A stretch of 46,057 nt of DNA from an uncultured Alphaproteobacteria bacterium (GTDB lineage: Bacteria; Pseudomonadota; Alphaproteobacteria; VGEJ01). Made by a program: the position numbers and the translations under genes. The stretch is taken from NCBI GenBank assembly GCA_913041535.1, contig CAJWJK010000015.1, positions 1 to 46,057 on the forward strand, read 5' to 3'. The notes below the pieces were generated by a model that was given only the letters and a program-made list of their open reading frames with translations, was not told the DNA's origin and searched no databases. Shown here one piece after another: positions 28,915 to 42,526 of this stretch; positions within the stretch are counted from its first letter, which is position 1, and every line of letters starts with the position of its first letter.

Positions 28915-29682
28915 ATGCCGGATCCACTTGGGACGTTTGAGTATACCTGGCGCTTATGGTTAGCAGCACCAGCTGCGGGATACCTTCTCGGATCAATTCC
29001 TTTTGGGCTTATTTTGTGTCGCATTGCTGGACATGGCGATATCCGAAACATTGGCTCTGGCAACATTGGAGCAACAAATGTTCTTCGTACTGGCAATAAA
29101 GCCCTAGCGGTTATCACTCTACTTTTAGACGCTGGAAAGGCTGGTGCTCTAGTCGCCATAGCCGATCATCTTTATGGCCAGGACTTCGCAGTAATATCTG
29201 GTTTAGGTGCTATGGTTGGGCATATACACCCACTCTGGCTAAAAAATGTTAAAGGGCGCGGGACGGTTACCACCATAGCAATCTTTGTATCTCTTTTCTG
29301 TGGCTTCGCAATGATTAGTGACGGGGGATATAGTTTTCGTACTGCCGCTGGAATCATTCTGATCATTGCGACAACTCCATTCGCTTGGGGTGGCAAGGGA
29401 GTAGCCTGTGCTATGGGCTGCCTTATTGCTCTAGCTTGGCCGGTCGGACTTCTATCTTGTGTAAGTTGGCTAGTCGTCGCAGTTCTATTCCGTTTTTCTT
29501 CACTTGCAGCCCTTTCTAGCTTTTTATTGAGCGTTGCATACGCTTATGTCCTTGCAGACCAACAAATCACAGAGTTTGCCGTCTTGTTATCAGTTCTGAT
29601 ATGCATTCGACATATAGATAACATTCGCCGTCTATTGAAGGGAAGAGAAGGAAAACTTTCTCTAACCCTCTCCAGAGACTGA
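28915..29682 (+). CDS. plsY: Glycerol-3-phosphate acyltransferase PlsY with an insertion
   Basis: PlsY transfers acyl from acyl-phosphate to glycerol-3-phosphate in the inner membrane, the first step of phospholipid synthesis. The 255-residue product has LLGSIPFGLILCR and DIRNIGSGNIGATNVLRTG (residues 42-60), both typical. The second motif, normally GHxxPVWLxFKGGKGVAT, is odd: GHIHPLWLK (102-110) is followed by NVKGRGTVTT, about 46 extra residues with two hydrophobic stretches, and only then WGGKGVAC (158-165). The rest (ALAWPVGLL) is normal. Family members are about 200 residues, so the excess matches the insertion. Membrane topology and activity may be altered. It lies directly after pyrC. 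Confidence 0.9.
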   Translation: MPDPLGTFEYTWRLWLAAPAAGYLLGSIPFGLILCRIAGHGDIRNIGSGNIGATNVLRTGNKALAVITLLLDAGKAGALVAIADHLYGQDFAVISGLGAMVGHIHPLWLKNVKGRGTVTTIAIFVSLFCGFAMISDGGYSFRTAAGIILIIATTPFAWGGKGVACAMGCLIALAWPVGLLSCVSWLVVAVLFRFSSLAALSSFLLSVAYAYVLADQQITEFAVLLSVLICIRHIDNIRRLLKGREGKLSLTLSRD

Positions 29683-29752
29683 CGTAACTATAAATTCATC
29701 CTAATAAACCACTCCCGTTATGAGATGAACATGTTGGCAGGAACAATAGTGA

Positions 29753-29890
29753 CCTTGTCGACTTAAGGTTGACGAACTCGCGTGCCAATGCGATGTCTCG
29801 CAAAGTATCATTGCTCACATGACTCTGTATAGCTCGTTTAATCAGAAAACTAGATCAATGATACTACAACAAATCAGCAAGCTTTCTTGA
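29753..29890 (+). pseudogene. dprA: Remnant of dprA (DNA processing protein A), C-terminal winged-helix
   Basis: In many alphaproteobacteria dprA sits between plsY and topA. Here that gap is only about 257 nt, but from 29768 one frame reads VDELACQCDVSQSIIAHM. The DprA C-terminal winged-helix domain typically reads VDEL.RQC..S...V followed by LLELELAG. The remnant starts after a stop and ends at TGA 29888-29890, after which no DprA sequence is seen. The DNA-binding Rossmann domain is missing entirely. The call rests on a short match plus gene position, so it is moderate; chance similarity cannot be excluded without alignment. Confidence 0.5.
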
Positions 29891-29939
29891 GCATGGTTTT
29901 GCTCTAGATTTGTCGCAATTTACGGGTGTAGATTTAGAG

Positions 29940-32489
29940 ATGGATGTTGTAGTTGTCGAATCCCCAGCTAAAGCTAAGACCATAAACCGATATCTTGGTC
30001 AAGGGTTTATAGTTCTCGCTAGCTACGGCCACGTGCGGGACCTTCCATCCAAAGATGGATCCGTTCGTCCGGAAGAAAACTTTGCAATGACTTACGTCCC
30101 CGACCCCGGTGCTGCAAAACACCTTACTAAAATTGCTAAAGCACTGAAGGGCGCCAAACACCTATACCTTGCCACGGACCCAGATAGAGAAGGAGAAGCC
30201 ATATCCTGGCATGTTCTTGAAGCCTTAGTTGAACGTAAGGCAATGAAAGACATCACCGTAAAACGCATCGCATTTAACGAAGTCACCGAGCGTGCGGTCC
30301 TTGACGCCCTGAAACATCCTCGCGATCTAGATATGGATTTAGTGTACGCACAACAAGCACGACGGGCTCTCGACTATCTTGTGGGATTTACGCTGTCACC
30401 GGTACTTTGGCGCAAACTTCCAGGCGCAAGATCAGCGGGCCGCGTGCAATCTGTAGCGCTGCGTTTAATATGTGAACGTGAACTTGAGATCGAAGCGTTC
30501 TCACCACGTGAATATTGGTCAATAGAGGGCCAGTTTTTTACGGCTGATGCAGAACCGTTCAAATCTCGTCTTACCCACCTTGATGGTGAGAAATTAACTA
30601 AATTCTCTATAGATAACGAATCACTAGCACGTGAGGCGGTTACTAAAGCAAAAGCAGCACCTGGGTACGCTATTAGTCTAGTAGAAGCCAAACAAAATCA
30701 ACGCCATCCGCCACCACCATTTCGTACCTCCACACTGCAGCAAGAAGCCGCGAGAAAACTCCGGTTTTCGGCCAGTCATACAATGCGGGTGGCTCAACGT
30801 CTCTACGAAGGAGTGAATATAGATGGACAAACGGTGGGTCTAATCAGCTATATGCGTACAGATGGTGTGCAGATGGCACAGGAAGCGGTTAACAACTGCC
30901 GAAATATTATAGATCATCTCTACGGCACAGCTTACGTCCCAACCAAGCCCAAGTTTCACTCCACCAAAGCAAAGAATGCTCAAGAAGCGCATGAAGCCAT
31001 ACGACCCACCGACTTCAAAAGATTACCTAAAGAAATTGCATCCTCACTGGAACAGGATCAGGCAAAACTTTATGAGTTGATCTGGAATAGAGCCGTTTCG
31101 AGTCAAATGAAGAGCGCTCTCTTGGAACGAACTTCGGTGGATATTTTGGCAACAGACGAATCGGTAATGTTTAGAACAAATGGCACTATTACGATTTTTG
31201 ATGGTTTTCTGCGCCTATACCGCGAGGGGCGCGACGATCAAAAAGATGAAGAAGATGAAGATTCTCTTCCACGGCTTACCAAGTCACAGAAAGTTCTTGA
31301 ACAGAAAATTGAACCGACTCAGCATTTTACTGAACCACCTCCACGTTTTTCAGAAGCCACCCTGGTCAAGAAATTGGAGGACCTGGGTATTGGCCGACCG
31401 TCAACCTACGCCAGCATAATCAGCGTCCTTCGTGACAGAGAGTATGTTCGAATGGATAGAAACCGCTTCATACCGGAAGATCGTGGCCGTTTAGTTACCG
31501 CATTCTTGACTAGCTTCTTTCGCCATTATGTTGAATATGACTTTACCGCTGAACTCGAAAATAAGCTCGATGACATTTCCGCTGGTCGTGCGAAATGGAC
31601 AAACGTCTTGGGCGAGTTCTGGAATCCCTTTAATAGCACTGTTGGGGAAATCAGCGAGCTAAGAGTTCGTGACGTATTGGATACCTTAAATGATGTTTTA
31701 GGTCCCTACATATTCCATCATGATGACCCGAATGCTGACCCACGTGCTTGCCCCACATGTAGTGATGGAAAGCTTAGTGTCAAAACTGGTCGGTTTGGCG
31801 CTTTTGTCGGCTGCTCCAACTACCCAACCTGTCGCCATACGAGAGCTCTAACTGCTACGGCAAATACTGGAGATCGAGATGGTGAAGGTGAAAACAATTC
31901 ACCACGTGAACTCGGGTCAGACCCTGAAACCGGTCTCCTTGTAAGCGCTAGACAAGGACCTTATGGACCATATGTCCAACGTGGAGAGGCAGGAGAAGAA
32001 GATAAGCCACACCGCGTCTCATTACCTAAGGGTGTAGAATTTCTACATGTAAACCTTGATACGGCTTTGAAATTGTTGTCATTACCCCGCGTTGTTGGCC
32101 GTCATCCAGAAACAGGTAAAAACATCACCGCAGCAATTGGCCGCTATGGTCCGTACATAAGGCACGAAAAAGAATCTCGTTCACTAGAAACAGACGATGA
32201 CATATTAGAAATTGGCCTTAACCGAGCTGTTTCTCTTCTTGCGGAGCCCAAAACTACACGGCGAAGCGGCGGCGAAGAACTGAGGAATCTTGGCTCACAC
32301 CCCGAAGATGATAAGCCAATTCGTATTTTAAAAGGGAGATACGGGCCCTATGTGAAACATGGCAAGACAAACGCTCCGATCCCAAAGGACCTTGAAGCTA
32401 TCGATATAACTCTAGATAAGGCGCTAGAACTTCTTGGAAAGCGCCTCAAACGCACCAAAAGAGCCGGACGAAAGAGAAAAATTGGCTAA
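29940..32489 (+). CDS. topA: DNA topoisomerase I
   Basis: TopA relaxes negative supercoils. The 849-residue product begins MDVVVVESPAKAKTINRYLG, the TOPRIM domain, with YLATDPDREGEAISWH (acidic metal site). The catalytic tyrosine is Y304 in GLISYMRTDG. A zinc finger follows (CPTCSDGKLSVKTGRFGAFVGCSNYPTCRHTRAL). The C-terminus has three repeat units (GPYGPYVQRGE, GRYGPYIRHEKE and GRYGPYVKHGK), typical of alphaproteobacterial TopA. ATG at 29940 is preferred because the family begins MDVVVVESPAKAKT; TTG at 29910 would add ten residues that do not fit. It is followed by rnr after 56 nt. Confidence 0.97.
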   Translation: MDVVVVESPAKAKTINRYLGQGFIVLASYGHVRDLPSKDGSVRPEENFAMTYVPDPGAAKHLTKIAKALKGAKHLYLATDPDREGEAISWHVLEALVERKAMKDITVKRIAFNEVTERAVLDALKHPRDLDMDLVYAQQARRALDYLVGFTLSPVLWRKLPGARSAGRVQSVALRLICERELEIEAFSPREYWSIEGQFFTADAEPFKSRLTHLDGEKLTKFSIDNESLAREAVTKAKAAPGYAISLVEAKQNQRHPPPPFRTSTLQQEAARKLRFSASHTMRVAQRLYEGVNIDGQTVGLISYMRTDGVQMAQEAVNNCRNIIDHLYGTAYVPTKPKFHSTKAKNAQEAHEAIRPTDFKRLPKEIASSLEQDQAKLYELIWNRAVSSQMKSALLERTSVDILATDESVMFRTNGTITIFDGFLRLYREGRDDQKDEEDEDSLPRLTKSQKVLEQKIEPTQHFTEPPPRFSEATLVKKLEDLGIGRPSTYASIISVLRDREYVRMDRNRFIPEDRGRLVTAFLTSFFRHYVEYDFTAELENKLDDISAGRAKWTNVLGEFWNPFNSTVGEISELRVRDVLDTLNDVLGPYIFHHDDPNADPRACPTCSDGKLSVKTGRFGAFVGCSNYPTCRHTRALTATANTGDRDGEGENNSPRELGSDPETGLLVSARQGPYGPYVQRGEAGEEDKPHRVSLPKGVEFLHVNLDTALKLLSLPRVVGRHPETGKNITAAIGRYGPYIRHEKESRSLETDDDILEIGLNRAVSLLAEPKTTRRSGGEELRNLGSHPEDDKPIRILKGRYGPYVKHGKTNAPIPKDLEAIDITLDKALELLGKRLKRTKRAGRKRKIG

Positions 32490-42128: not shown

Positions 42129-42526
42129 TTACGTTTACTCACTAGCTTTACACAACCAACTGAAGTTACTAGAGACAAAGCACATACAAAGTTCTTGCTG
42201 CTAATTATTGCAACGAATCCCGCACCAGATTGCAAGCAGTACAGTGCGCATCGTCGCAAGCCAGTATAACTAGTCTTTAACTAAGAAAACACCACAGCGT
42301 GTACAATGAATAATGCCAACGCCAGTGTTTGAAATGATGAACACAGAGTGGGCCCTCGCAAGGTAGGCGGAAGAAATCCGTCTCAATACTGCCCCAAATA
42401 TCTTACGTTCCAATAAATCAGACTACTTCGATAGACATAGAAACTGGTTTTACATAATATGCTATGCTTATAAGAAACGGGTTAAGACTCGTATGTTAGC
42501 GAGGAAGTGCACAAGGGCAGGTTCGA
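42129..42526. other. Divergent intergenic region between clpS and the carboxypeptidase
   Basis: No gene, tRNA or stable hairpin was seen in 398 nt. It must hold divergent promoters for clpS (-) and the carboxypeptidase (+). The AT-rich run near 42449-42474, with TATGCT and TATAAG hexamers, is the best plus-strand candidate, but neither has a good -35 at standard spacing. Confidence 0.5.

Follow-up and report, generated by a model that had tools for sequence, protein, structure and literature searches.

A very probable relic of dprA between plsY and topA in an alphaproteobacterial draft genome without a detectable comEC

The window analysed here is a 46,057-nt stretch from the draft genome of an uncultured alphaproteobacterium (G000), in which the genes plsY and topA flank a short gap at the position where relatives carry dprA (Table 1). 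Both flanking genes are intact, and PlsY is 59% identical across residues 1–251 to the PlsY of the nearest relative, G001, which represents the sole other genus of the family in our comparison. A longer in-frame start is available for topA, a TTG at 29910; the start of the G001 gene, which reads MDVVVVESPAKAK, corresponds to 29940. At an ORF threshold of 40 codons, the gap contains a single 40-codon ORF, on the opposite strand. The dprA reading frames of relatives are mostly 370–410 codons long, i.e. a gene of roughly 1.1–1.2 kb in this slot, and the intact dprA of G001 ends about 25 nt before topA, as it does at most of the nearest named alphaproteobacterial (Acetobacteraceae-like) topA loci. 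On the G001 contig that carries plsY (L093, G001:C188), this gene is followed, before the contig ends, by a frame for a MAPEG-like membrane protein, and plsY may be separated from dprA in that genome. By simple ORF tiling, the longest gap in the window is a different one, of 398 nt (42129–42526), between a minus-strand ORF (probably clpS) and the next plus-strand ORF.

Table 1. Features of the plsY–topA locus, in window coordinates, and the expected position of comEC elsewhere in the genome.
Feature	Position	Strand	Description
plsY	28915..29682	+	Upstream flank, intact; 255-aa ORF
Probable remains of the dprA slot	29683..29939	+	257-nt gap between the plsY end and the topA ATG
Probable DprA winged-helix remnant	29753..29827	+	25 codons, PCRLKVDELACQCDVSQSIIAHMTL; tblastn to G001 DprA, shuffle and window controls, codon list
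topA	29940..32489	+	Downstream flank, intact; ORF
Expected comEC slot	G000:C9 26023-26244 (L103:8024-8245)		gltX–lexA gap of 222 nt

The sequence-only reading had proposed that a decayed dprA lies between plsY and topA, with the frame from 29753 representing the C-terminal winged helix of DprA, and this proposal is borne out by similarity, by controls and by the syntenic position. Among 44 DprA queries, collected from named topA loci as well as from relatives among the alphaproteobacteria, the top tblastn match to the gap was the DprA of G001, with 12 of 25 residues identical (48%) over the frame in question, a score of 25.4 bits and an E value of 4.45e-5. The core of the match, VDELACQCDVS, lies at 29768–29800, and about 18 codons (18–25) are still recognisable as those of DprA. 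The distance from the valine of VDEL to the topA ATG is 172 nt here versus 156 nt on the same strand in G001, a difference of 16 nt. G001 and the Acetobacteraceae carry an intact dprA in this same slot upstream of topA with a similar winged-helix sequence (VDEL.RQC), but theirs is a full gene with a Rossmann-fold domain, whereas only a winged-helix scrap is found here. The codon list shows that stops flank the stretch on both sides and that there is no ATG, GTG or TTG in frame between the preceding stop and VDEL, which leaves the winged-helix core with no usual start codon from which it could be translated. The remnant is probably not translated as DprA, and as a protein it probably does nothing. 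When the gap was searched at the DNA level against 385 genomes of the class, matches were essentially confined to the topA part of the query.

The size of the gap can be compared with that in dprA-less lineages of other alphaproteobacterial families. In these genomes (for example G009 and G037, and relatives of G024 and G031, which themselves lack dprA) there is likewise no dprA between plsY and topA, but the distance between the two genes has been cleared to about 3–75 nt, as opposed to 257 nt with a remnant here; for some of these loci the genome in which dprA absence was established is a sister within the family and not the one that supplied the locus. Set against these lineages, the gap has the appearance of an incompletely cleared deletion. 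The retention of sequence here and not in the other lineages, together with its location directly upstream of topA, could also be accounted for if the 3' end of dprA had been kept as leader or promoter DNA for topA, which is compatible with a dprA origin and adds a role to it. However, the gap contains one promoter-like site where 0.9 are expected, a search for terminators returned none and an Rfam search returned zero RNA family matches. Nothing in these results points to a function that has been kept. We consider this role unlikely, and we think it quite unlikely that the dprA 3' end was taken over as a topA leader or promoter in a way that explains its retention only here among the sampled dprA-less lineages.

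A dprA relic must also be distinguished from unrelated intergenic DNA in which VDEL..QCDVS has arisen by coincidence. The match is short, the rest of the gap scores at chance level, and the statistics obtained with profiles only are modest. A profile of the whole DprA C-terminal winged helix, used alone, gives a weaker result (E 0.0027 over six frames), and the score of the gap in a frameshift-tolerant profile alignment is equalled by 5 of 1000 shuffles and by 36 of 1432 overlapping windows. The Pfam model DprA_WH (PF17782) does not match the remnant, a short stretch of 25 residues, and one control window out of 197 scores at least 25.4 bits against one or other of the 44 DprA queries. Against coincidence, the best match is to the nearest relative, and the remnant is found on the expected strand and in the expected place beside topA. 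The ungapped score against the C-terminus of G001 DprA is 54, above every one of 400 dinucleotide shuffles (maximum 41) and above all 366 stretches taken from elsewhere in the window (maximum 44; Gumbel p about 1e-5), and with G001 DprA as the query the 197 control windows all stayed below 25.4 bits (maximum 21.9). Because the profile result is marginal and Pfam is silent, the sequence case rests on the nearest relative, with position adding weight; taken together, these observations make coincidence very improbable.

Beyond the 25 codons, a frameshifted continuation of the winged helix 3' of 29827 is suggestive by eye (LCIARLIRK versus LELAGRLQR) but was rejected, as 751 of 1000 shuffles were equally good. 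The idea that the 85 nt at the start of the gap derive from other parts of DprA was likewise rejected, with 187 and 602 of 1000 shuffles performing equally well. The gap outside the remnant has no significant similarity to DprA.

The genome is a 2.09 Mb draft of 39 contigs with a reported completeness of 100% and a reported contamination of 4.25%. Searches for the Rossmann-fold DNA_processg_A domain (PF02481) and PF17782 gave no match anywhere in its 2.09 Mb, and G001 DprA returned nothing at E <= 10; of 41 related genomes, 31 give matches to the same two Pfam models. There is no dprA elsewhere in the assembly. That the true genome has an intact dprA, from which a draft contig has lost about 1 kb, is very unlikely: the number of contigs and the reported contamination leave room for such an artefact, but the remnant is itself diverged and has no in-frame continuation, dprA is on no contig despite the reported completeness, and comEC is missing in parallel.

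Both dprA and comEC, which the sequence-only reading had singled out for a wider search of the genome, are absent elsewhere in it. G001 carries both genes, and its comEC is convergent to lexA, which is followed by moeA, moaC and trpC (these G001 gene names were read from translations). In the present genome gltX, lexA, moeA, moaC and trpC follow one another, in the same lexA-moeA-moaC-trpC order that lies beside comEC in G001, and the expected position of comEC is the gap between gltX and lexA. A comEC remnant in this gap was considered and rejected, the best of 23 ComEC queries scoring 19 bits when the background averaged 20.6. Five of the 41 genomes are without comEC, and all of these are also without dprA; a further five lack dprA only. 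Some of these genomes are incomplete and the association is only indicative.

The stretch between plsY and topA is thus very probably a dprA pseudogene relic, formed by deletion of most of the gene, with the 3' end now decaying and comEC also lost. In the order and mechanism that we infer, an ancestral dprA would have been the immediate upstream neighbour of topA, with its end a few tens of bases from that gene, and one or more deletions in the interval from plsY to the codons of the winged helix would have removed the body of dprA. The leftover 3' end would then have gathered substitutions and indels, leaving about 18–25 codons recognisable, and comEC would also have been lost, in its case leaving a gltX–lexA junction without a remnant. 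The relic is 48% identical to G001, which is not far below the 59% of the intact PlsY. This might hint, weakly, that the large deletion was recent compared with the divergence of the two genera, the relic being a stretch of 25 residues picked for its similarity.

With dprA and comEC both gone, the genome is missing two components at the core of how DNA is taken up and processed. A role of DprA is to load RecA onto single-stranded DNA as it comes in (PMC8578077), and the gap had accordingly been read as the record of a lost function. The absence of the two genes stands; the loss of natural transformation is suggested by this gene content. The wide distribution of DprA hints at broader roles (PMC12386762), and the loss of dprA therefore need not bear on transformation alone. 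In Rickettsia, dprA and a ComEC/Rec2-related gene are split or lost, which has been read as decay of foreign-DNA uptake (PLoS One 2008, PMC2635572). These are likewise Alphaproteobacteria with both genes decaying, but in several Rickettsia species the genes persist as split ORFs, whereas here dprA is reduced to ~20 codons and comEC is traceless. The present case is real but ordinary gene decay, of an already known sort, in a different alphaproteobacterial family. It records the joint loss of dprA and comEC in a little-sampled family, with one of the losses caught before clearance of the slot, and adds a data point to the known pattern in which reduced genomes lose genes for DNA uptake, while changing no mechanism.

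Two other genes were looked at in the same genomes. Searches for comF gave, in G000 and G001 alike, only uninformative hits that fell short of the comF family cut-off. Full-length comM (TIGR00368) scores over its cut-off in 29 of the 41 genomes and is absent from both G000 and G001; if this is a loss at all, it may be an older one.
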